The position numbers and the translations under genes are program-made. Positions 130-28,732 of a DNA stretch of 30,763 nt are shown here, one piece after another; the stretch's first letter is position 1, and each line of letters starts with the position of its first letter. The stretch covers positions 1 to 30,763 of IMG/VR virus record IMGVR_UViG_3300035114_000006, one strand, 5' to 3'. The DNA is from a virus. Below the pieces are notes generated by a model. The model was not told where the DNA came from and did not search any database. It worked only from the letters and a program-made list of their open reading frames with translations.

Positions 130-161
130 GCGCCGCCGAGGGAAACGGCGGCGCCTTTTTT
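130..161 (+). terminator. rho-independent terminator
   Basis: A perfect 9-bp stem (GCGCCGCCG at 130-138 with CGGCGGCGC at 146-154, loop of 7) is followed by a run of six T at 156-161 on the plus strand. It would stop rightward transcription just before the 3' end of the leftward integrase gene. On the minus strand the hairpin lies right after the integrase stop but has no U-tract, so it is weaker in that direction. Confidence 0.75.
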
Positions 162-1044
162 ACGCGAACGGTGACGACAGAGCGATCGCCTTCGGTGTCC
201 AGCGCATGTAGTGGCGGCGGATGATGTCGCTCGTCATCGGGTCGCCCTTGTGACCAAGCCAGTGCGCGACCCACTCTGCCAGGCGCTTCATGTCCATGTT
301 CTTCGCGGCCCCGAGCTCGAACTGGTACGAGACGCACGACCGGCGAAGTCCGAGCTGCGTGATTCGCGGCAATCCCGCGCGCAGGCACACGCGCGCCATC
401 GGCTTGATCGGCGACACCCACCAATCCGGAGCCACCCGCTGCGCATCGGCGACGATGCCGCCGGTTACGAACCAGTCCTCGAGGATGCGCGCGAACTCCG
501 CCGGCAGCGGCAGCCACGCCGGGTCCGCCTTGGACTTCGTGTTGTACCGCAGCCACTCGCCCTTGGTCAGGTTCACGTCGGAGCGTCTCCACCGCTTCAC
601 GTCGGACGTGTGCATGCCCGTCCAGAACAGAACGTCGATTCCGATCCGCTGCTCCGGCTCGAACGCCAGCCGACCCTGGCGCCACTGGTCGTAGGTCCAC
701 AGGTCTTGCCCCGGCTTCGAGTCGCTGGCGATGTCCGGCCACCAATCCACGGTGCGCGGCAACAGGCCGCGACGGTAGCAGTCCTCAAGCGCCATGCGCA
801 ATGTGACGAGGCGCTTCTTGACCGTCGCCACCATGATCCCGCGCGCCTTCTCGCTCTCGATGTACTCCAGCACACACGGGAACGTCACCTTGGAAACGTG
901 GCAGTCGCCGAACCAATCAACTAGCCACCGACGGTGATCGCGATGCTGGGACTTCGTTGCATCCGCGCAGTCTCGGTGTTCGATGGTCCAGGTTATTGCT
1001 TCGTACAGCGTGCCTTCCGTGTAGATCGCTAACTCCAGCTGCAT
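160..1044 (-). CDS. int: tyrosine-type integrase with altered catalytic residues
   Basis: This 294-residue protein has the layout of a phage tyrosine recombinase: an N-terminal SAM-like core-binding domain (about residues 10-100) and a C-terminal catalytic domain. It would integrate and excise phage DNA at att sites. Visible catalytic landmarks are the hairpin lysine near K170/K172, R234 in the LGLRRS box, H265 in WLGH and the nucleophile Y279 in RRHYMR. Two positions depart from the usual R-K-H-R-H-Y set: the first Arg is His145 (GMHTSDV where GxRxSEL is usual), and the His of the HxxR box is Leu231. The ATG at 1044 has a good GGGGAGA ribosome site. It is the last gene of the leftward early operon, after the annealing and SSB-like genes. 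Family assignment is firm; normal activity is not, given the substitutions. Confidence 0.85.
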   Translation of the reverse strand: MQLELAIYTEGTLYEAITWTIEHRDCADATKSQHRDHRRWLVDWFGDCHVSKVTFPCVLEYIESEKARGIMVATVKKRLVTLRMALEDCYRRGLLPRTVDWWPDIASDSKPGQDLWTYDQWRQGRLAFEPEQRIGIDVLFWTGMHTSDVKRWRRSDVNLTKGEWLRYNTKSKADPAWLPLPAEFARILEDWFVTGGIVADAQRVAPDWWVSPIKPMARVCLRAGLPRITQLGLRRSCVSYQFELGAAKNMDMKRLAEWVAHWLGHKGDPMTSDIIRRHYMRWTPKAIALSSPFA

Positions 1045-2126: not shown

Positions 2127-3212
2127 TTAGAACGGAACCTTGTCGCCCCTGTCTTTCAGCTTCTTCATGCGTTCGATCGCGTTCGACGCCTGCGTCTTCG
2201 TCAAGAGCTTCGACGTGTTGACGTGATAGAGCTTCTCCAGCGTCGCGCGGTACTCGACGTCGCCGAGCTGCAGCTCCTGCTTGAGGATGTGGATCGAAGC
2301 GAGCTGTTCGTTACTGGCCTTGGGTTCGATCGTGACCTCGCCCGTCGAGTGATCGGTGACTTCGATGCGCCCGGCATCGGTCAGCTTCTGCGTGACCGTC
2401 TTCGGCAGCGCCTTGTCGAGATGGCGCGCGATGTCGCTGGCGGTCGCCGCGCGTTCTCCCTTGTGGACCTTGACCGACTCGTCGACCGGAATCGGACCGC
2501 CCACCATGGCCGCCAGCGTCTCCGCGTTCGCTCGGTCGGCGGCCACGACCGCCGACGGTAGATCGGGCTGGGGCCACGCGCCCTCTTTCGCCGCGGTCAC
2601 CTTCGGCATGTTCCCGCCGCGCTTCGGCACGTCGATCTTCTTGATCCACTTACCCCCGTAGCAGATGGTGTTCTCTTCCTTGTACCTCTTGGTCCAGGAC
2701 CGATCCCAAATCTGCCAGGCGATGCCCAGGTCCTTGCAGCAGCGGACGAGCGCGTTGGACTTTGCGATCTCCAATGCCGTCCCGTAATCGCTCTTGGGGT
2801 TGGACGTGATCCATCGCCCTTCGCCCATCGCCTCGGCGATGAAGCGGCCCCCGACGTAGAGCAGCCCCGTGTAGAACACCGTCGGAGATGCCTCGCCCTT
2901 CGTCGTCGTGGTCGTGCGATCGACCACGGGCGCGCCGTTGCTTCGGATGGCCCAGCCGCCCATTCCGAAAGCGCGCACGAGACGCTGGCGATAGTGGACC
3001 TGCGGCATGTAGAGCTCGCCATCGTCGGGCTTCACCTGGATCTCGTTTTCGTCCAGCGGCGCGGCCAAGATCGCCTGCTGCTCGGGCGTGAACGGCGACG
3101 ACGCAATCCCGACGTAGGCGTTTTCGGCCGGGTCATGCACCGTGAGACCGCGTTCCTGATCGGTGTCCATCGCGCGTAGCGCAACGTCGGTAACTTCTGC
3201 CGTGGCGGTCAT
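2127..3212 (-). CDS. Rad52-type single-strand annealing protein
   Basis: A 361-residue protein whose core (about residues 55-172) matches the Rad52-like phage recombinase pattern. It has a YMPQVHYRQRLVRAFG stretch, a YTGLLYVGGRF strand pair, then GEGRW, SDYGTALEIAKSNAL and LGIAWQIWD, the conserved helix lining the DNA groove. The C-terminal third is Lys-rich with a helical segment (NEQLASIHILKQEL) like those used to contact SSB. It would anneal complementary strands in phage recombination or replication. The ATG overlaps the preceding stop (ATGA). The next gene encodes an SSB-like protein, supporting the role. No partner exonuclease is next to it; the VRR-NUC protein at 6141 is the only nuclease nearby. 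Confidence 0.75.
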   Translation of the reverse strand: MTATAEVTDVALRAMDTDQERGLTVHDPAENAYVGIASSPFTPEQQAILAAPLDENEIQVKPDDGELYMPQVHYRQRLVRAFGMGGWAIRSNGAPVVDRTTTTTKGEASPTVFYTGLLYVGGRFIAEAMGEGRWITSNPKSDYGTALEIAKSNALVRCCKDLGIAWQIWDRSWTKRYKEENTICYGGKWIKKIDVPKRGGNMPKVTAAKEGAWPQPDLPSAVVAADRANAETLAAMVGGPIPVDESVKVHKGERAATASDIARHLDKALPKTVTQKLTDAGRIEVTDHSTGEVTIEPKASNEQLASIHILKQELQLGDVEYRATLEKLYHVNTSKLLTKTQASNAIERMKKLKDRGDKVPF

Positions 3213-7521: not shown

Positions 7522-7854
7522 CTACTTCCAGACCTTCGCGAGCACGATGCCGGCTATCGACACGGCCAACGCCGCCAGCGCGAGCAGCAGGCTCAACATC
7601 CATTTCATCGAGCTGATTCTGACGGCCAGCGACGCTATCGTTTTCTCGACGCCGGAGATCGCGACCTTCAGCGCTCCGATCGCCTCCGCGTCCTCGACCC
7701 GGTGATCGGCCAGCTCCTTTCGCAGTCCCGCCTGGCTGTCCTGGCGATCTTTATCGGCCTCTTCCAAGTCCTTCACCCTCCCGTCGATTGATTCGACCTT
7801 TTGGGAGAGTACGGCCAGGTCTGTGGATTCTTCCCGGGCTTTTCGGGGGCTCAT
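7522..7854 (-). CDS. coiled-coil protein with C-terminal membrane anchor
   Basis: A 110-residue protein: an acidic/basic coiled coil over residues 10-75, then one transmembrane helix (about 84-106, MLSLLLALAALAVSIAGIVL) and a short basic tail. This resembles XhlA-type and other holin-associated phage proteins. It lies at the end of the leftward late region after two other small membrane proteins, so a lysis role is plausible. No ribosome site is obvious before ATG 7854. Confidence 0.6.
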   Translation of the reverse strand: MSPRKAREESTDLAVLSQKVESIDGRVKDLEEADKDRQDSQAGLRKELADHRVEDAEAIGALKVAISGVEKTIASLAVRISSMKWMLSLLLALAALAVSIAGIVLAKVWK

Positions 7855-8159: not shown

Positions 8160-8269
8160 TGGAACTCCGCGATCACTTCCTTGAGGCCATCGATACACAT
8201 GTGCGAGAGACCGCACAGGGCAGGGACGACCAGCGCGACGACGATACATGCCCCGCGGATCGTCGTCAC
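8156..8269 (-). CDS. 37-residue membrane microprotein
   Basis: A short frame with GTGA overlaps at both ends: GTG 8269-8267 overlaps the esterase stop, and its TGA at 8158-8156 overlaps the next GTG. It encodes one hydrophobic segment (ACIVVALVVPALCGLSHM) with a short charged tail. The precise coupling on both sides argues it is translated. It could be a small holin-like or holin-modulating protein. Confidence 0.5.
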   Translation of the reverse strand: MTTIRGACIVVALVVPALCGLSHMCIDGLKEVIAEFQ

Positions 8270-8994
8270 GCGAATGCTATCTTCGAGAACGCGACCGCAC
8301 TGAGCCACAGTTTGCCGTTGTCGTTCGGGTGAATCCCATCCGACGTCAAGATCGATGGCCCGGACGCAACGTTGCTCAGATTGTTAGCCTGTTCCCACTG
8401 CCACAGTGTGGCGCGAGGGTTCGCAAAGCACACGCTGAGCGTATCGCACGTCGTCTGCAGCGCCGCTGTCTTCGAGTCGATGAGCGCGTCATCCGCGTTG
8501 TTTCCGACAGGGCCTGTCGTCCAGAGCTCGCCATGCGTAAGGGCGGCGACGAAAAGCAGCCGCACGCTCGGTATCGCCGCGCGCGTCTGGGTAATGATGG
8601 TCGTGAGGTCGGTCTGGCTCTGCAGGTCCGTGCGAAACCCGTTGATGACGTCGTTGATCTCGCAGGCGATGATCACGACGGTCGGGTTGTACTGCGTGAT
8701 CCTGCCCGGCACGTCAGCGGCGATGTTGAAGAGCCGATTGCCGCTTACCCCAGAGTTGACCCATGTCACCGGGCTTGCCGGAGGTCCAGGCGGCGATACA
8801 TATGGAGGCGCCACCCGAACGGCGGCCTGCCCGGCTAATACCGTCGCATAACCAGGGTAGTTCGGCGCGGGAACCGCGAAGGCTCGCGTTACCGAGTCCT
8901 GCAGCGGCACGTACGACCCGATCTCAACCAGCGAATCGCCGACGATCACGATCGTATCGCCGCGCCGTATCGTGACCGTGGATGGCGACGGCAT
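8266..8994 (-). CDS. SGNH/GDSL-family hydrolase, probable tail esterase
   Basis: A 242-residue protein with SGNH-hydrolase blocks in order. Block I has GDSL with nucleophile Ser21, block II has Gly in NSGVSGN, block III is CEIND (Asn and Asp kept, but the usual Gly is Glu), and block V is DGIHPND with Asp219 and His222. Such enzymes in phages usually deacetylate surface polysaccharide during adsorption. It lies after the lectin-like and appendage genes, fitting a virion-associated esterase. No signal peptide is seen. Confidence 0.8.
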   Translation of the reverse strand: MPSPSTVTIRRGDTIVIVGDSLVEIGSYVPLQDSVTRAFAVPAPNYPGYATVLAGQAAVRVAPPYVSPPGPPASPVTWVNSGVSGNRLFNIAADVPGRITQYNPTVVIIACEINDVINGFRTDLQSQTDLTTIITQTRAAIPSVRLLFVAALTHGELWTTGPVGNNADDALIDSKTAALQTTCDTLSVCFANPRATLWQWEQANNLSNVASGPSILTSDGIHPNDNGKLWLSAVAFSKIAFA

Positions 8995-17928: not shown

Positions 17929-18231
17929 ATGCGTCGATGGCTGGTGCTGCTGGCGGTCCTGTCGGGGTGCGCGGAGGCGACCACCGATCCGGTGCAGATG
18001 TCGCTGGACGCCGATGCGGGCGTGGACACAGGAGCGGCGGCGCCGGATGCGCGGCCGCTCGTCTGCCCACCGGGCGACCGTGGCGAGAACTGCATCAGTC
18101 CGGCCGGCAAGCGTACGTTCAAGGGCGACTACGCCTGTGCGCTGCCGAACGGTCGCCTGGAGATCGGGTGCACCTACGCCGACGACCCGAACGTGACGTT
18201 GATCGTCGCGTCCTGCGCCGAGTGTCAGTAG
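17929..18231 (+). CDS. lipoprotein with acidic Asp/Ala-rich linker
   Basis: A 100-residue protein with a clear type II signal peptide (MRRWLVLLAVLSGC, lipid attachment at Cys14). An acidic linker rich in Asp and Ala (SLDADAGVDTGAAAPDARP) precedes a small Cys-containing domain with six Cys between about 46 and 99, likely disulphide-bonded. The linker is typical of myxobacterial surface lipoproteins. The gene is on the strand opposite to the late operon and starts 19 bases from the divergent tail-hub start. Probably a moron expressed from the prophage, altering the host surface; an outer-membrane spanin is an alternative but it lies far from any inner partner. Confidence 0.7.
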   Translation: MRRWLVLLAVLSGCAEATTDPVQMSLDADAGVDTGAAAPDARPLVCPPGDRGENCISPAGKRTFKGDYACALPNGRLEIGCTYADDPNVTLIVASCAECQ

Positions 18232-18234
18232 GAG

Positions 18235-18591
18235 ATGCGCGCGCTCCTGCTGGCGGCGCTGCTGGCGGCGGCCTGTGCGAGCGCCGGCGAGACACGCCTT
18301 AGCTCGCACACGTTCCAGATCGTCTACAAGACGCGCCACAACCGATCGCCGCAAGAGGCTCTCTCGGCGGCGCTGCGCCGGGCCGCCGAGATCACGCTGC
18401 GCGAAGGCTTCGAGTATTTCGCCGTGGTCGATCGCGACGCCAGCGAGTCCTACCGGGCATACGACGACATGGCCGGAAAGCGGCAACTGACGTCGCGCTC
18501 CACAGCTACGCTCACGTTCCGCGTCATCCCCGCCAACGACGGCGAGGGCCGCGTAAACGCCTACAGCGCGCGCATGATCCTGCGCCGCTGA
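18235..18591 (+). CDS. lipoprotein resembling the CC0125/CC1285 family
   Basis: A 118-residue protein with signal peptide and lipobox (LLAALLAAAC, Cys14). The mature part has FQIVYKTRHNRSPQEALSAALRRAAEITLREGFEYFAVVD, matching the pattern of CC0125/CC1285-type lipoproteins (a beta strand, then a helix with RAAELT and GYDYF). ATG 18235 follows the previous stop by three bases, with GGAG touching the start codon. These family members are usually chromosomal envelope proteins, so this looks like host-derived cargo. It converges with the minus-strand gene ending at 18594. Confidence 0.7.
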   Translation: MRALLLAALLAAACASAGETRLSSHTFQIVYKTRHNRSPQEALSAALRRAAEITLREGFEYFAVVDRDASESYRAYDDMAGKRQLTSRSTATLTFRVIPANDGEGRVNAYSARMILRR

Positions 18592-20733: not shown

Positions 20734-22101
20734 TTACGCAATCTGAGCGACGCCGTTCGCGCCCGGGAACGAGCACGAGAGGTTCGCGAGGTACTTCCAG
20801 CGGAGCTGGACGCCGTCGGCCGTCGCCAGGTCGATCAGCTGATCCTTTCCGGCGCGGCCGGCCATCTTGATCGGCTTGTTCCGCGGGCTGCGCAGGAACC
20901 ACGTGCGCATGTCGAGCGCGTAGAAGCGGTCCGAATCGCAGCCGGGCGCCGCGTACAGCGTGCACGGGCCCTTGGGGCCGATGTGGCGGATGCCCTCGTA
21001 GTAGGCGACCGCGGCCTCGCCGGTGCCGGAGTTGCGCACGTAGACCGCCTGGTTCTGGAGGCTGTCCTCGTACGCCTGGTAGAACTCCGGGTTGCACATC
21101 AGGACCCGCGGGTCGGCCTGGCGGTTGATCGAGATGCGGGTCAGCAGCGCGTTGACCGCCTGCTTGGGATCCAGGTTGCGCGCGTCGATGCGGACGCCGG
21201 CGAGCTTGTTCGGATCCACGCTCCGGTCGATGCCGGTGGCGTCGGAGCCCGAAGGCGCCGTGATCGGGATCCAGAGCTTGAGACCGAGCACCTTCAGCGC
21301 CGTGGTCAGCGAGCCCGAGATCTTGTCGGCCGTGTAGAACAGGAAGTGCGTGTCATTGGAGCCGCCGGCCCAGCCGCCGTTCGCCGTGACGGTGATGGTG
21401 CCCGCGTCGGTGTCCACCGCCGTGACGGTGAAGGACCCGGTATCCAGGGAGCCGCCGTTGACGGTCGCGCAGCTCACGCCGACGTCGCCCACCTGCCACT
21501 TGATCGTGTCGGTGCGCTGGCTGAGCGTCAGGACGAAGGGACCGCCGCCGGTGTGCGATCCGATCACGCCGCGCGAGCCGAAGCCGTCGCCGAACATGTC
21601 GTACTCGAGGTCTTCGGAGACCTTCCTCATGCAGCCTTCGCCGGCGTCGCCGAGGAGTTCCACGATCGCGCCGTCGTCGCTGTCCGAGACGTCGATTTCG
21701 GTGTTGTCGACGTTCTCCACCGCGTAGCTCTTGCCCCACGGCGTGATGAACTTCTTGCGCGACTCGCTGGACTGGTTCGTGATCGCGCTCGCGATGTCGG
21801 CGCCGTGGCCGGCGGTGCGGCCGATCTTGATCGCCTGGATGATCTGCTGGCCGTAGCCTTCGATCTTGTTCACCAAGCCGAAGAACACGTTGTCTCGGTA
21901 CGCTGCGTCCTCGTACGCGGCGCTGTACCAGTCCTTCAGGCCGGCGGCGGCGTTGTCGCTGATGTTCAGGATGGACAGCGCCAGCGGGACGATGCGCGTC
22001 CATCCCTTGAGGCGCGCGAACGCGACGAGCGCGACGGCGACCAGGACCAGCGGGGCGGCGTAGTGGGCCAGGGCGGCGAGAATCGTGTGGGCGATGGACA
22101 T
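20734..22101 (-). CDS. major capsid protein with N-terminal hydrophobic helix
   Basis: A 455-residue protein lying after the scaffold gene, with typical HK97-fold coat features: an N-arm (SDNAAAGLKDWYSAAYEDAAYRDN), a helix and strands in the middle, an inserted beta-domain around residues 180-260, and a C-terminal core (RVLMCNPEFYQAYEDSL; FYALDMRTWFLRSPRNKPIKM). It would form the icosahedral shell. Unusually, residues about 6-28 (HTILAALAHYAAPLVLVAVALVAFA) are a strong transmembrane-like helix followed by Arg/Lys (RLKGWTR). The start is firm: GAGGAAAAG precedes ATG 22101, and no ATG, GTG or TTG lies between this helix and the coat N-arm. By the positive-inside rule the coat domain would face the cytoplasm. 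See findings for the possible link to the CPBP protease. Confidence 0.8.
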   Translation of the reverse strand: MSIAHTILAALAHYAAPLVLVAVALVAFARLKGWTRIVPLALSILNISDNAAAGLKDWYSAAYEDAAYRDNVFFGLVNKIEGYGQQIIQAIKIGRTAGHGADIASAITNQSSESRKKFITPWGKSYAVENVDNTEIDVSDSDDGAIVELLGDAGEGCMRKVSEDLEYDMFGDGFGSRGVIGSHTGGGPFVLTLSQRTDTIKWQVGDVGVSCATVNGGSLDTGSFTVTAVDTDAGTITVTANGGWAGGSNDTHFLFYTADKISGSLTTALKVLGLKLWIPITAPSGSDATGIDRSVDPNKLAGVRIDARNLDPKQAVNALLTRISINRQADPRVLMCNPEFYQAYEDSLQNQAVYVRNSGTGEAAVAYYEGIRHIGPKGPCTLYAAPGCDSDRFYALDMRTWFLRSPRNKPIKMAGRAGKDQLIDLATADGVQLRWKYLANLSCSFPGANGVAQIA

Positions 22102-22117: not shown

Positions 22118-23131
22118 TCAGGGTTGACGGGCGGCGAGACGGGTGCGCTTCAAGATCTCGGCCTTCTTAGAAGCGAGGTCCTTGGAAGCGGGAGATGGTT
22201 CGGTTGATGCGCGGGCCGCGACGGACGGCTGCGACACGGCCGGTATGGTCTTGCGCGCGGGCGGGGGATCGGCGCCCTTCGGGGCCGGGGCGATGTCGGG
22301 CGTGCCGTAGCGCGCGGCGCGCGCGGCGAAATCCTTCTCGATGCGGTCGAGGCAATCGCGGACGAGCGCGGTCGCTTCCTCCTGGGTCGGCAGCCACTTC
22401 TCGCCCTTCGTCTTGCGCAACTCGGCCACGACCTTGCGGCCGGCGTCGATGGCGAGCCCGATGCCCTCGGATAGGTTCTCGTCGGAGCGCGACAGGCGCG
22501 GCCAACGGCCCTTCTCGGCGTCGATGACATCCTTGACGCCCGCGCGCCCCGCCTGCTCGGCGGCTTCGGCCTGCGTCTTGGTGGCGCGCTCCTGGTCGGC
22601 CTTCTCGCGGTCGTCCAGGCGCTTCTGGAGCTCGGCGATCTTGCGATCGTGGTCGGTCAGCTCCTTGTGCGCCGGGTTGTCCGTGCGCCGGAGATAGGCC
22701 GCCGACAGCTTCTCGATGTCGACGTCGGGGAACTCGTCGAAAAAGGTCCCCGGGTCGGCCTTCATGCGCTCGACCAGCGCCGCGTACTTGTCCTCGGTCG
22801 CGACCGGCGCGGCCTCGGGCTTCGGCGGGGCGGTGAGCTTCGTTGACAGCTCGGCGATCTGCGCCTTCAGCGCGGCGATCTCGCTCGTCGTGTCGGAGGC
22901 GACCGGCGCGGGCGTGGTCGGCGCGGCGGCATCGGTCGCAGGGGCCGGAGTCGAACCGGCGGGGGCGGGGTTATGGGCCCCGCTCGAGCCCAGCTCTCCC
23001 TGCTCTGTGCGTGCCGGATCACCGGCGCGGGCGCGCGCCAAGATCTCGGCCTTGCGGGACTCCAGCGACGCCGGGGGCGTCTCGGTGCCCGCTTCCGTTC
23101 CTTCCTGTCCCTCGCCCGACTGTGTGGCCAT
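22118..23131 (-). CDS. scaffolding protein
   Basis: A 337-residue, low-complexity, mostly helical protein directly upstream of the coat gene: Ala/Pro-rich N-terminal part, coiled coils (EIAALKAQIAELSTKL; DHDRKIAELQKRLDDREKADQ) and a basic C-terminus, the usual layout of podovirus scaffolds whose C-terminal helix binds coat. A short motif is repeated near both ends: SRKAEILARARAG at about 25-37 and SKKAEILKRTRLA close to the C-terminus. ATG 23131 is preceded by GGGTGA and the leader element. The CPBP gene's open frame runs into this gene's first ~113 bases. Confidence 0.75.
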   Translation of the reverse strand: MATQSGEGQEGTEAGTETPPASLESRKAEILARARAGDPARTEQGELGSSGAHNPAPAGSTPAPATDAAAPTTPAPVASDTTSEIAALKAQIAELSTKLTAPPKPEAAPVATEDKYAALVERMKADPGTFFDEFPDVDIEKLSAAYLRRTDNPAHKELTDHDRKIAELQKRLDDREKADQERATKTQAEAAEQAGRAGVKDVIDAEKGRWPRLSRSDENLSEGIGLAIDAGRKVVAELRKTKGEKWLPTQEEATALVRDCLDRIEKDFAARAARYGTPDIAPAPKGADPPPARKTIPAVSQPSVAARASTEPSPASKDLASKKAEILKRTRLAARQP

Positions 23132-23528
23132 TCACCCGGGCGCGCGCGGCACCGAAACTAACCGCGAGGTTGGCGATCAGGTGGGCGGCGACCGCGGCGG
23201 CCAGATCGCCGGTCAGCATCGTGATGCCGCCCAGCGCCAGACCGCACAGGAGCGCGAACGCAGCCCAGGCGAGATGCCGCGAGCGCGGGCCGGCGTGGCA
23301 GAGCGCGAAGGCCGCGCTGGAGACGATCAGGCCATCGGCCTGTAACAGCAGCCCGCGAAACACGATCTCCTCGCCCGCGGCCGCCGCCAGCGCCAGCACC
23401 ATCGGGATACGCAGGCCGTACGCCTCATTTCGCAGCGCGCGCGCCCACGCGAACCACGCGACCGCCAGCCGCACGGCACCGGCCATCGCCAGTCCAGCGG
23501 CGACGCCGGCGGCCGCGTGCCAGATCAC
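23019..23528 (-). CDS. CPBP-family (CAAX-type) intramembrane protease
   Basis: From GTG 23528 (overlapping the upstream stop as GTGA) the frame encodes 169 residues with several hydrophobic helices. All three catalytic boxes of the CPBP/Abi family are present and in order: EExxxR (Glu53, Glu54, Arg58 in GEEIVFRG), FxxxH (Phe74, His78) and HxxxN (His116, Asn120). These glutamic-type intramembrane proteases cleave within or next to membrane helices. The gene lies between portal and scaffold genes, where phages usually encode the prohead protease. After residue ~123 the frame passes through the leader element and into the scaffold gene, giving a basic, low-complexity tail of ~46 residues that the family does not need; a TAG in another frame at 23160-23158 would be the natural end. 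A host-derived moron is the alternative. Confidence 0.75.
   Translation of the reverse strand: MIWHAAAGVAAGLAMAGAVRLAVAWFAWARALRNEAYGLRIPMVLALAAAAGEEIVFRGLLLQADGLIVSSAAFALCHAGPRSRHLAWAAFALLCGLALGGITMLTGDLAAAVAAHLIANLAVSFGAARARVNGHTVGRGTGRNGSGHRDAPGVAGVPQGRDLGARPRR
23139..23158 (-). promoter_or_regulatory. late leader element, copy 3
   Basis: Begins GTTTCGGTGCCG and ends GCGCC; GGTGC and GCGCC can pair around CGCGC. It ends 7 bases before the scaffold ATG at 23131, and a GGGTGA ribosome site fills that gap. It overlaps the 3' part of the CPBP reading frame. Confidence 0.75.
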
Positions 23529-23683
23529 GACGGGAGGGCGTCGACGAGATCGCGCAGGAAGGCGCGCAGCTCGTCCGGGTCCCACACGAGCGCTTCGGCT
23601 CGCGCGCGCAGGCCCTCGAGCTGGGCCTTCCTGTCGTCAGCGGCGTCCGCTGCGTCGTTGGTCTCGGTCTTTGGCTTCGGCAT
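23525..23683 (-). CDS. 52-residue small head-block protein
   Basis: ATG 23683 has a strong AGGAGA ribosome site and begins 13 bases after the portal stop. Lys/Asp-rich N-terminus (MPKPKTETNDAADAADDRK), then one long amphipathic helix (LEGLRARAEALVWDPDELRAFLRDLVDAL). Its stop overlaps the CPBP start (GTGA), coupling the two. It could be a small portal- or scaffold-associated peptide; no family recognised. Confidence 0.6.
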   Translation of the reverse strand: MPKPKTETNDAADAADDRKAQLEGLRARAEALVWDPDELRAFLRDLVDALPS

Positions 23684-23696
23684 GGCGGTCTCCTGG

Positions 23697-25571
23697 TCAG
23701 GCCGCCATCGGCGGCGCGGTGCTTGGGGTTGCTTGGACGGGGGGCGCGGCGGGGGCGCCGGCGGGGGAAGCGGTTGGGGATGGCGGCGCCAGGAACTGCT
23801 GGCCGCTTTCGATCTGCGTCGACACCGCCGCCATGAACGCCACGAGCTGGCGCAGGACCTTGCGGTCCGTGCCGAGGCGCTTCTCGAGCGCCCAGCGGTC
23901 ACGGGCGGTCGCCAGGGCGCGCGGGAGGTCGTTGTACGGCTCTGGCGGGCAGAACTTCCCGGTCTTTACGATCTCGTTCAGCGTCGTCTCGATCAGGTCG
24001 TCTTCGGCGGTCGCCAGCATCGCGTACGCCTTCAGGTCGGGCATCTGCTGAAGCTTGAAGCGGATTCGCTTATCGATGACCCCGTCAGCGTACCACTCGG
24101 CGATCTGCTGCTGCCGGCCGGCCGGGTCGTTCGGAAGCGACGAGACCGGGAACACGGCGACCTTGCGCTGGTCCTTCGCCAGCTTCAGATCGCCCCACGC
24201 GATGCGTCCGCCGCGCACGCCCGGCACGTTCACACTGAGGTTGATCTCCTCGGCGGCCTCCACGGCGAGCTCGGCGATGTCCTTCACCAGCTGCTCGAGC
24301 GCAACCTGCAGCGCCTGGTTCCGGGCGTCCTCGATCTGGACCATGGTGCGCAGCGCGGCGCCCGACGTGATCCCGGGCTGCTTGAGGCCGGCGGTCTGCT
24401 GCTGGGACAGGCCCACGCGCTGGAAGGCGCGGTTTATCCAGCGCTCCAGCTCCTGGTAGGCGTCGGGCGCATTGGACGTGACCACGATCGGCTCCACTTG
24501 CCCGCCCCCGACCTTGCGGATGATCCGCCCGGGGCGACCGCCCAGCGCCTCGGCCTTGATCTGGGTGTTCTGGTCCACGATCCAGCCGGAGAACGCCATG
24601 CGGTCGCCGTTGGCGTCGATGCGCTCCTCCCATTTGTTGATCTTGATCTGGTACGGCAGCATGGCGTGGGCCGCGGACCCGCCGCGCCAGCCGAGCGACC
24701 GTCGCGTCCACAGGAACCGCGCGAAGGGGAAGTGATCGCGCGTCCAATCGTCATCGTCGAGAAGGTAGTTCGGCAGCGCCAGGCATCGGCGCCCGGGCTT
24801 GCCATCAGCGCCGGGGCGCTTCCAGCCTTCGAGCAGAGCGATCTGCTGGATGGGAGCCGCCGAGCCCCAGAAGGCCGCGCCGAACGCCGACGGCGCCGAG
24901 CGCACGGCCGCCGCGATCTTGTCGCGCTCTTTCGCCGGCGCGATGTCAGCGTACGCCATGGCGTCGTCGCGCATCATGTAGCGGCGCTGGATGAGCGAGC
25001 CGGGCGCGCCGGTCAGCGTCTCCGATTCGTCGTACAAAATCTCGTCGTCCAGCGTGCGGCCGATCTCGAGACACTTCCGGTCAAACGACGGCTGGACCTT
25101 CACCCATCCGGTGCCCCACGTACCACCGTCGCGGAAGGTCAGTCCTGTGGTGTCGTAGAGGCGGCACTCGTCGAAGAGCGCGTCGACGAAGTGCTCGGCC
25201 TGCTCGCACGCGAGCCGCGTGTCGATGTCGCCGCCCTTCGGCAGCACCTGCACGAACGGGCGCAGCGTGCCGATCCTGTTCTCGAAGACCTCCAGCGCGC
25301 TCGCCACGACGTTGATCGCCGGCTCCTGGTAGTTCCCCAGGCCGAGCCCAGTGACCGCGTTCGCGGGTCGCGACGACATCCAATACGAGAACAGCGCCGG
25401 GGCCTCGTCGCCGGTCACGAGCCGGTAGAGCAGGGCCTGCCGGTAGCGCCGCTGCCGGTTGATCAGTTCGAGCGCGCCGGCCTGGCCATACATCGCGCGT
25501 GCGCAATCCTCGTCCTGCTTGGACTTGTCGAACCAGGCCGCGGCCGGGAGATTGGGGTTCTGGGGCGTCAT
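23697..25571 (-). CDS. portal protein
   Basis: A 624-residue protein with podovirus portal character: an N-terminal helical part (GALELINRQRRYRQALLYRLVTG), YQEPAINVVASALEVFENRIGTLRPFVQVLP, a DESETLTGAPGSLIQRRYM wing segment, SLGWRGGSAAHAMLPYQIKINKWEERID, a stem/crown region with the long helix (SGAALRTMVQIEDARNQALQVALEQLVKDIAELAV) and a Pro/Ala-rich C-terminus. It forms the dodecameric channel for DNA packaging and exit. ATG 25571 overlaps the preceding stop (ATGA). Confidence 0.8.
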   Translation of the reverse strand: MTPQNPNLPAAAWFDKSKQDEDCARAMYGQAGALELINRQRRYRQALLYRLVTGDEAPALFSYWMSSRPANAVTGLGLGNYQEPAINVVASALEVFENRIGTLRPFVQVLPKGGDIDTRLACEQAEHFVDALFDECRLYDTTGLTFRDGGTWGTGWVKVQPSFDRKCLEIGRTLDDEILYDESETLTGAPGSLIQRRYMMRDDAMAYADIAPAKERDKIAAAVRSAPSAFGAAFWGSAAPIQQIALLEGWKRPGADGKPGRRCLALPNYLLDDDDWTRDHFPFARFLWTRRSLGWRGGSAAHAMLPYQIKINKWEERIDANGDRMAFSGWIVDQNTQIKAEALGGRPGRIIRKVGGGQVEPIVVTSNAPDAYQELERWINRAFQRVGLSQQQTAGLKQPGITSGAALRTMVQIEDARNQALQVALEQLVKDIAELAVEAAEEINLSVNVPGVRGGRIAWGDLKLAKDQRKVAVFPVSSLPNDPAGRQQQIAEWYADGVIDKRIRFKLQQMPDLKAYAMLATAEDDLIETTLNEIVKTGKFCPPEPYNDLPRALATARDRWALEKRLGTDRKVLRQLVAFMAAVSTQIESGQQFLAPPSPTASPAGAPAAPPVQATPSTAPPMAA

Positions 25572-26082: not shown

Positions 26083-27627
26083 TCAGTGCCAGCCGACGGC
26101 GACAGACAGAGCGTCGGGGCGCCCCTCGCCATCGCCCATGACCTCGGCCATGTCCTCGGCGGCGATGGCGGCCAGCTCGCGCTCTGCCTCGGTGCGCTTG
26201 TCGGGCGCCTCGTAGGCGTCGAAGTAGGGGCCGAGCGTGTAGCGCATCGCCTCGGACGGGTCTGGGTGCCAGGCGCTGGCCCAGCGCCACAGGCCCTTCG
26301 CGCGTGCGTCAGGGTCCCACCGAGCCTTCGTGTAGTCCTCGGCCAGCGCCGAGCCGTTCATCACCAGCAACCTACCCTCGGTCAGCAGGCCGTTGTTCCG
26401 CCGCACCTGGCCTGGCATGTCGGATTTCTCGGCGGCCTTGATGACGGGTATGCCGTGGTCGCGCTGGAACACGTCCAGTTCGTTCTTGCTGCTGCCGGCG
26501 TCGTAGCGCCACCAGCCGGGCCGCAGATGCCGCTGGACGATGCCGCAGACCATGCCCATCTGGCCCCAGGAGACGTTCGCCTTGCGCGGCGTGGCCCACT
26601 CGAACACCTGCTGCACCTTCGGCGATCGCCGACCCCAGCCGCACACCTCAAGCGCGGCGCGGTCAACGGATCCAGGGTCCAGCGCGGCGCTGAAGTACTC
26701 GATGCCCTCAAGCGGGACGGCGGCAAGCATGGACGCGATCGGGACGCCGGCCGCCTCGAGCTCGGCGCGCGCGCTCTCCAGCCACGCGGGCGGCATGGCG
26801 TCGTAGCCGTTCAGCAGCGGCGAGTAGCGGTACGCCGTCGCGTTCAAGTCAAACGCGAACTTGCCGAACCACTCTCGTTGTACTTCCGGGCTGTCCTGGG
26901 TCAGCCCAGGGTTTGCCGTCAGGTACGCCGCCAGCGCGGCGGGCTGATTGCGCAGGTGCGGGTTTTCGAAGCGCGACCAGTTATGCCTCGACCACGCCCC
27001 CTCGTTCCACACCTCCATGAACCGGCCTGCGTTGACCTCGGGGATCGTGCCGGCCATGACGAGCTTGCCGGGCCGGTCCATGTCGTCGAGCAGCGCGTTC
27101 GGCAGAATGCGCGTGGTCAGCGGGACCAGGATGCTGTCCGTCTGGCTCTGCGACTCGTCGACGATGGCCAGGTCCAGCCGGTTTCCCAGGAACGAATCGA
27201 TGTGCCGGATGTCGTCGGTGCCCGACACGTACATGACCGATCCGTTGGGAAACGTGGTCGTCATCTCGTCCTCGAGGCGCTTGTGCTGGATCTTCAGGCC
27301 GTCCAGCAGCGGACACCAGACCTCGTTCCACAAGAATTTGCGCGCGTGCGGCTTGCTCAAGCCCACGTAGAGGATGTTCCGCCGCGGTGTCGCGAGCGCG
27401 GTCAGCAGCGCCAGGGCGGCGAGCCCATACGTCTTGCCGGCGCGGCGCGAGCAGAGCACGACCATGTACGGCGCGGGGTCGCGGATCATGGCCAGCTGGC
27501 GCAGGTGGTCTTTGGCCAGGGTCTCGGCGGTAACGCGGGCCAGCAGCTCGGTCTGACCTGTGCGAGCGCGGCGTTCCGCTTCCTTCTCGGCCGCGCGCTG
27601 GAACCGCCGCGCGAGCTTCGCGTTCAT
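26083..27627 (-). CDS. terL: terminase large subunit
   Basis: A 514-residue packaging motor. The ATPase domain has a Walker A variant CSRRAGKT (59-66) and Walker B LDLAIVDE (Asp157, Glu158), followed by a coupling-type segment (GKLVMAGTIP). The C-terminal nuclease domain shows the acidic positions expected of the RNase H-like fold: AALDPGS, WWRYDAGSSKNELD and GRPDALSVAVGW near the end. ATG 27627 overlaps the stop of the gene upstream (ATGA); the open frame before it is out of phase with that gene and is not used. Confidence 0.9.
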   Translation of the reverse strand: MNAKLARRFQRAAEKEAERRARTGQTELLARVTAETLAKDHLRQLAMIRDPAPYMVVLCSRRAGKTYGLAALALLTALATPRRNILYVGLSKPHARKFLWNEVWCPLLDGLKIQHKRLEDEMTTTFPNGSVMYVSGTDDIRHIDSFLGNRLDLAIVDESQSQTDSILVPLTTRILPNALLDDMDRPGKLVMAGTIPEVNAGRFMEVWNEGAWSRHNWSRFENPHLRNQPAALAAYLTANPGLTQDSPEVQREWFGKFAFDLNATAYRYSPLLNGYDAMPPAWLESARAELEAAGVPIASMLAAVPLEGIEYFSAALDPGSVDRAALEVCGWGRRSPKVQQVFEWATPRKANVSWGQMGMVCGIVQRHLRPGWWRYDAGSSKNELDVFQRDHGIPVIKAAEKSDMPGQVRRNNGLLTEGRLLVMNGSALAEDYTKARWDPDARAKGLWRWASAWHPDPSEAMRYTLGPYFDAYEAPDKRTEAERELAAIAAEDMAEVMGDGEGRPDALSVAVGWH

Positions 27628-28019
27628 GACGGCGTCTGCTGCCGGATCGCCTGCCACCAGGACAGCACAGGATCGGGCGCGCCCTTGAGCATCTCCTCGA
27701 TCTCGTCGTCCGACGCGATCTCGCGCACAGGCCCGATCACGCGGTTCAGGTAGAGAGTCATCCACGTGGCGTCGTACTCGATCTCGGTGGCTACCCGTAC
27801 GCCCCTGTGGTACACGCCCCGCTCGACGCCCATCGCAACGCGCCTAACCATGGCGAAGATCTCGCGCAGGTTGGCGACGGTGCGGTGCTCCTCGTCCAGC
27901 ATCTCTTCGATGTCCTGGATCTTGCGCCGGCGCCCACCCGGGTTGCCGCTCTGACCAGGCTGGAACGGACGCCCAGGACCACGGCGCCGCTTTGGCTGAT
28001 AGTCACTGCTTTCTGCCAC
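27624..28019 (-). CDS. DUF5681-type protein, probable terminase small subunit
   Basis: A 131-residue protein beginning with a Lys/Arg-rich segment and GRPFQPGQSGNPGGRRRK, the signature of DUF5681, which commonly precedes phage large terminase genes. The remainder is helical (IEEMLDEEHRTVANLREIFAMVRRVAMG). It probably recognises the packaging site. GTG 28019 is chosen over an out-of-frame ATG three bases upstream, because only this frame gives the DUF5681 motif. The leader element precedes it. Confidence 0.75.
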   Translation of the reverse strand: MAESSDYQPKRRRGPGRPFQPGQSGNPGGRRRKIQDIEEMLDEEHRTVANLREIFAMVRRVAMGVERGVYHRGVRVATEIEYDATWMTLYLNRVIGPVREIASDDEIEEMLKGAPDPVLSWWQAIRQQTPS

Positions 28020-28211: not shown

Positions 28212-28583
28212 TCAACCCGTCGGTGCATCTCCATGTTCGGTCATCAAAGGCGGCTGCTTACCGAGGCAGAAGACCATCCTCCCGTGCTGTTTTGTCACGG
28301 CGGCGGCGATCATCCTGGCCCGCTCGGTCGCAGCGTCTGAGCCGGCGCCCAGCGCCACCTCAATCTCGCGTTCGATCGGACCACTGCACACCGCGCACAG
28401 AGAAACGTGCGGCACCAGCTCGTCCATGAACCCGATGTAACCGCAGATGTAGCACGGTCGCACCTCGAAGAACGTCCGGCGCCGGCAGAAGATGCCGGCG
28501 CGCCTGCGGTAGGCGACGACGAGTCGCGGGACTAGCTTGCAGGCCACCAGGACAGCAGCAGCCAGGCCAACCCAGGCGGTCAC
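28212..28583 (-). CDS. membrane-anchored zinc-ribbon-like protein
   Basis: GTG 28583 overlaps the upstream stop (GTGA). Residues 3-25 (AWVGLAAAVLVACKLVPRLVV) form one transmembrane helix followed by Arg residues, then Cys44/Cys47 and Cys63/Cys66 (CYIC...CAVC) form a likely zinc ribbon, and a helical C-terminus follows (ATERARMIAAAVTKQHG). 123 residues. Function unknown; it would hold a zinc module at the cytoplasmic face. Confidence 0.6.
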   Translation of the reverse strand: MTAWVGLAAAVLVACKLVPRLVVAYRRRAGIFCRRRTFFEVRPCYICGYIGFMDELVPHVSLCAVCSGPIEREIEVALGAGSDAATERARMIAAAVTKQHGRMVFCLGKQPPLMTEHGDAPTG

Positions 28584-28732
28584 TTCGGCGCTCCGCTCTT
28601 CGTGTACTCCGGCCCGTAGTGGCGCTTGAGCATATCCTCGATCGTGGTGTTGAATGCCCACCGCTTCACGATGCGCCGCACCCGCCAGCGCGCGAGCCAG
28701 TAGAACGGCGAGAGGCGATACCAGCGCGTCAC
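28580..28732 (-). CDS. 50-residue basic aromatic protein
   Basis: GTG 28732 overlaps the upstream stop and its own stop overlaps the next GTG. Rich in Trp, Tyr and Arg (MTRWYRLSPFYWLARWRVRR), probably an amphipathic, membrane- or nucleic-acid-binding helix. Supported mainly by the double overlap. Confidence 0.5.
   Translation of the reverse strand: MTRWYRLSPFYWLARWRVRRIVKRWAFNTTIEDMLKRHYGPEYTKSGAPK

Follow-up and report, generated by a model that had tools for sequence, protein, structure and literature searches.

The window analysed here spans an IMG/VR virus record from end to end (30,763 bases). Its minus strand carries a head module in the order TerL, two small ORFs, portal, 52-aa ORF, CPBP (Rce1-like) protease, scaffold-like protein and major capsid protein (MCP), with an integrase elsewhere in the record (Table 1). 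Escherichia phage SU10 (Kuravirus) has the same order of TerL, portal, one small ORF, scaffold and MCP, but unlike the window it has neither a CPBP gene between portal and scaffold nor a hydrophobic MCP start. The window MCP matches SU10_MCP weakly, below the Pfam cut-off, and the scaffold-like protein, placed as in SU10, is 30% identical to the corresponding gene of a relative (L008; tblastn, E 2e-9).

Table 1 Features of the head module and associated elements in the window
Feature	Position	Strand	Basis
Integrase	160-1044		PHROG 1, 5e-20
Major capsid protein (MCP)	20734..22101	-	PHROG 9953 major head protein, 3e-8
Extra N-terminal MCP segment, residues about 1-41	21979..22101	-	Alignment; absent from more distant relatives
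Predicted membrane-spanning helix of MCP, residues 7-25	22027..22083	-	Mean Kyte-Doolittle 2.24
Scaffold-like protein	22118..23131	-	Named by position and similarity to the L008 gene between portal and MCP
CPBP (Rce1-like) glutamic intramembrane protease gene (predicted), 169 aa, GTG start	23019..23528	-	PF02517; dN/dS codons 1-132
CPBP 3' end over scaffold-like gene, read-through tail, residues 133-169	23019..23131	-	14/14 changes non-synonymous
CPBP motif 3, H116 xxx N120	23169..23183	-	Sequence; invariant in sibling copy
CPBP motif 2, F74 xxx H78	23295..23309	-	Sequence; invariant in sibling copy
CPBP motif 1, E53 E54 xxx R58	23355..23372	-	Sequence; invariant in sibling copy
52-aa ORF between portal and CPBP	23525..23683	-	Homologue in L007; same place as SU10_07 in phage SU10
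Portal protein	23697..25571	-	PHROG 332 (6.7e-6), PHROG 156 (1.3e-4)
TerL	26083-27765	-	PHROG 2, 1e-23

The GTG start of the CPBP gene overlaps the TGA of the 52-aa ORF as GTGA, and at its other end the gene overlaps the scaffold-like gene by 113 bp. In a further contig, L007, a homologue of the 52-aa ORF adjoins a portal 72% identical to that of the window. A preliminary description had placed the CPBP gene inside the head operon and coupled it by GTGA to the gene after the portal; both statements hold, the gene lying between the portal and 52-aa ORF on one side and the scaffold-like and MCP genes on the other. Its further points, that the enzyme should work and that it is co-produced with the head proteins, are inferences.

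Several other features of the record deserve mention. TerL is a mosaic, nearly identical at its C-terminal end to that of L003 (L009) and matching at 46% over residues 79-560, and it adjoins a portal at 98%. A GDSL-type lipase/acylhydrolase (PF13472, 2e-12) is encoded at 8266-8994(-) among the tail-end genes, and an Mgm101-type recombination protein (PF06420, 6e-38) at 2127-3212(-). Two small lipoprotein-like ORFs (17929-18231 and 18235-18591) lie on the plus strand, against the direction of the tail genes; rich in Asp, Ala and Gly after the lipobox cysteine, they resemble Myxococcota lipoproteins in style, a possible hint at the host. The 110-aa product of 7522-7854(-), a charged coil followed by a C-terminal membrane helix with a basic tail, has no Pfam match and is presumably holin- or XhlA-like, judging by its look.

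The CPBP gene and its coding constraint

The product of 23019-23528(-) scored 39.9 bits against Pfam PF02517 (E 5.3e-10, residues 43-121, cut-off 22.4), the only Pfam family above cut-off, and a six-frame search of the whole record with PF02517 gave 41.3 bits. Known prohead protease families were not matched, and the Pfam matches of 28 further window proteins included no other peptidase family. The protein shares with the CPBP/type II CAAX family (Rce1, MmRce1) the EExxxR, FxxxH and HxxxN motifs, several hydrophobic segments and the above-cut-off profile score; it differs in being short (132-aa core), phage-encoded and part of a head operon. Each motif falls within a hydrophobic segment; the four segments (residues 44-62, 59-77, 86-104 and 109-127) are defined by hydropathy only. 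All seven motif residues, listed beforehand as a complete set, are indeed present and are retained in a sibling copy whose core is 89% identical.

Among NCBIfam profiles ABC_perm_CPBP came top, followed by the myxosortase group (MrtX/MrtJ; NF033192, NF040914), all far below their cut-offs: MrtJ and Mrt_core gave 20.4 bits (cut-off 75) and 18.9 bits (cut-off 100). Myxosortases belong to the CPBP enzymes and cut at a membrane anchor; no MYXO-CTERM-like substrate was recognised for the window protein. AlphaFold models were poor (pLDDT 52 and 42), that of the CPBP protein, at 52, having five helices, and a sequence search of solved structures gave nothing meaningful. An alanine-rich membrane protein could in principle produce a false family call, and the alanine-rich sequence, the poor model and the low NCBIfam scores would fit such an error. 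The Pfam score, however, lies 17 bits above the cut-off, and the three motifs stand in the correct order within hydrophobic segments, so that we regard a false call as very improbable and membership of the CPBP family, as judged from sequence, as near certain, in agreement with the preliminary assignment.

The CPBP protein is encoded at 85% identity in three sibling contigs (L002, L003 and L004), whose copies are identical over all 510 bases and were counted as one further copy; as their IMG sample numbers are close together, the three may stem from one project. Between window and sibling, 34 of 51 changes in codons 1-132 fall at third positions (P=1.2e-6), and dN/dS is 0.163, compared with values of 1.8-1.9 for the two remaining sense frames. 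Over the same core, antisense reading in register with the third positions gave 0.277, sense coding being the best, though not the sole, low value. Comparison with the portal (0.045), scaffold-like (0.214) and MCP (0.204) genes places the CPBP core close to the latter two.

The part of the frame over the scaffold-like gene, codons 133-169, behaves differently: each of its 14 changes alters the encoded CPBP residue and no third position is affected, which marks these residues as a by-product of the overlap, a read-through tail with no domain. ARAGORN also called a tRNA-Met(CAT) at 22934-23004(-), wholly within the scaffold-like ORF and kept in L002, L003 and L004; its 3' half resembles initiator tRNA. 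The call is probably due to chance, given that 10 of 2000 synonymous shuffles of the ORF also yielded one and that the best Rfam match, at 21 bits, is below cut-off.

Purifying selection on the CPBP gene has been maintained over a dS of about 0.38 between the two carriers, and the GC3 of its core (0.879) falls within the 0.859-0.950 spanned by 11 other genes that were examined. A passenger of no benefit to the phage, to which presence in one lineage only would lend some support, is disfavoured by this selection, by the third-position bias and by the GC3 value, and we consider it distinctly improbable. The preliminary description had named close similarity to host chromosomal CPBP genes, combined with absence from sister phages, as the mark of a recent passenger; the gene is indeed missing from the more distant ones (see below), but the part of the argument concerning recent arrival falls, because selection has acted over that divergence and the gene has the phage's own GC3. 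Together, the sequence data indicate that one lineage of uncultivated tailed phages has long retained, under selection, an apparently intact gene for a CPBP protease within its head operon.

Distribution among related phages

Searches of viral contigs with the portal, TerL and MCP yielded seven records: the three siblings, L007 (portal 72% identical), L008 (portal 38%), L030 (MCP 38%, portal 39%) and L012 (portal 26%). PF02517 was matched in the three siblings and in none of the other four. L007 was excluded from the absence count, since the contig breaks off within the 52-aa ORF and does not reach the CPBP slot. In all three distant relatives (portal 26-39%) CPBP is absent and the portal and scaffold-like genes abut, the distance from portal stop to scaffold-like start being 31 bases in L008 and 1 base in L030, with the two genes overlapping in L012.

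Wider searches detected no close cellular or other phage copy, and the searches were weak. The protein has no PHROG match and no match in 50,697 phage records, which fits the earlier view that its context is unusual for a phage, although low-complexity masking weakens the second search. INPHARED tblastn searches for close phage relatives with CPBP, portal, TerL and three MCPs found none. Plasmids gave nothing for TerL or the CPBP core; the blanks for CPBP are weak, as its alanine-rich query may be masked. Two genome-contig scans for cellular relatives gave nothing either, the second being anchored on poor peptides. A survey of viral records with the DNA pattern for G-E-E-(ILV)-x-F-R-G returned 10 stretches, three of them the known siblings; the other seven records have no PF02517 match, the pattern being uncalibrated on cellular CPBPs. 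The open-access papers and abstracts consulted contain no description of a phage-encoded CPBP protease; among them, a host CPBP gene serves as a phage integration site (PMC8637289), and PMC12680318 concerns a host mutation.

This distribution bears on the possibility that CPBP is a lineage-specific host-interaction gene (a moron) that cleaves or shields a host membrane protein, in superinfection exclusion, bacteriocin-like immunity or counter-defence, the head operon being merely where it was acquired. Most CPBP proteins are host enzymes. The more distant relatives lack the gene, the abutting portal and scaffold-like genes in all three of them indicate a slot that accepts inserts, and the integrase makes a prophage stage possible. 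However, the protein has no PADLOC match, the GTGA overlap links the gene to the late structural genes and not to a promoter active in lysogeny, and such a role leaves the MCP helix described below unexplained. We judge this role possible, though less likely than not.

A hydrophobic extension of the capsid protein and its possible release by CPBP

The MCP of the window starts with MSIAHTILAALAHYAAPLVLVAVALVAFARLKGWTR and aligns with the MCPs of non-carriers only from about residue 42. The preliminary description had missed this hydrophobic extension. Its predicted helix stands out from seven control MCPs (L008, L030, L012, lambda E, T7 10A, HK97 gp5 and SU10), which reach Kyte-Doolittle maxima of 0.87-1.48, and at most 1.23 in their first 60 residues. 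TGAGGAAAAGACC precedes the MCP start codon in the window and in L005. Since none of codons 2 to 71 is an ATG, GTG or TTG, and since the residues common to all five aligned MCPs begin at 55, the extension must be translated. The sibling start was read in L003 (via L005) and L002 (via L006), L004 ending before it; over codons 1-46 it differs from the window at five nucleotides, three of them synonymous, the two amino-acid changes being F28L and K32R. What is new here, then, is that the MCP of the carriers has a translated N-terminal extension of ~41 residues with a hydrophobic helix.

Both CPBP and the MCP helix occur in two distinct carrier types, and both are absent from all three non-carriers (L008, L030 and L012). 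Read together, the two traits are most simply explained by a protease that removes the tether, and the MCP is a plausible and directly testable CPBP partner in the same operon. The MCP helix would insert so that the short N-terminus faces outward and the capsid domain stays cytoplasmic, an orientation favoured because R30, K32 and R36 follow the helix; under the positive-inside rule, positive charges mark the cytoplasmic side. MCP would thus be anchored, as it is made, on the cytoplasmic side of the membrane, and the CPBP protein, whose synthesis would come directly before that of scaffold and MCP, would cut in or beside the helix, freeing an MCP of about 410-425 residues for capsid assembly. 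Loss of about 30-45 residues would bring the MCP near the 421-residue length of the L008 and L030 proteins. We tentatively propose that CPBP frees a membrane-tethered MCP precursor in this way, and put the probability at about 0.35.

Such a protein would act as a head-maturation protease, yet one that works within the membrane and has a membrane tether as its target. The prohead proteases HK97 gp4 and lambda C occupy the same slot, between portal and scaffold or capsid genes, and the proposed trimming of the MCP N-terminus would resemble theirs; in contrast to them, the window protein belongs to an unrelated family, is predicted to be membrane-embedded, and sits in a slot that is closed in non-carrier relatives. 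We hold it possible, though unlikely, that this is a tailed phage whose MCP is a membrane-tethered precursor served by the phage's own glutamic intramembrane protease, an intramembrane prohead protease.

Several observations count against release of the MCP. The co-occurrence of the two traits is confined to a single branch, that is, to one evolutionary origin, so chance or linkage may explain it, and relatives with the same head genes do without both CPBP and the MCP helix. Rce1 substrates are prenylated tails, and known CPBP substrates are mostly C-terminal signals or such tails, not N-terminal anchors; myxosortase, a CPBP enzyme that cuts at a membrane anchor, acts on a C-terminal signal (PMC11980579). 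It is also conceivable that the MCP helix just packs within the shell, and other proteins with membrane helices, encoded at 7522-7854 and 28212-28661, could be the CPBP substrates instead; these are unmatched in non-carriers and matched at most as a fragment in the siblings, which is uninformative as the sibling records are incomplete.

The same helix would also be a natural membrane partner for a non-proteolytic assembly factor. Its CPBP fold would keep capsid parts or the portal membrane-bound, or serve in the modification of lipids or lipoproteins, as a CPBP-type protein does in the lipoprotein N-acylation system of Staphylococcus aureus. Membership of a CPBP protein in a two-component acyl transferase system (PMC7387801) favours such a factor. 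Retention of all seven motif residues, which a pure anchor would not need, speaks against it, although weakly at 89% identity, and overall we find this role improbable.

In tailed phages, head maturation relies on soluble proteases that act inside the prohead. If release of a membrane-tethered MCP by CPBP is true, capsid assembly in this lineage would start on the membrane and be licensed by membrane proteolysis, and the poorly understood prokaryotic CPBP family would gain a defined substrate, testable by co-expressing the two genes.
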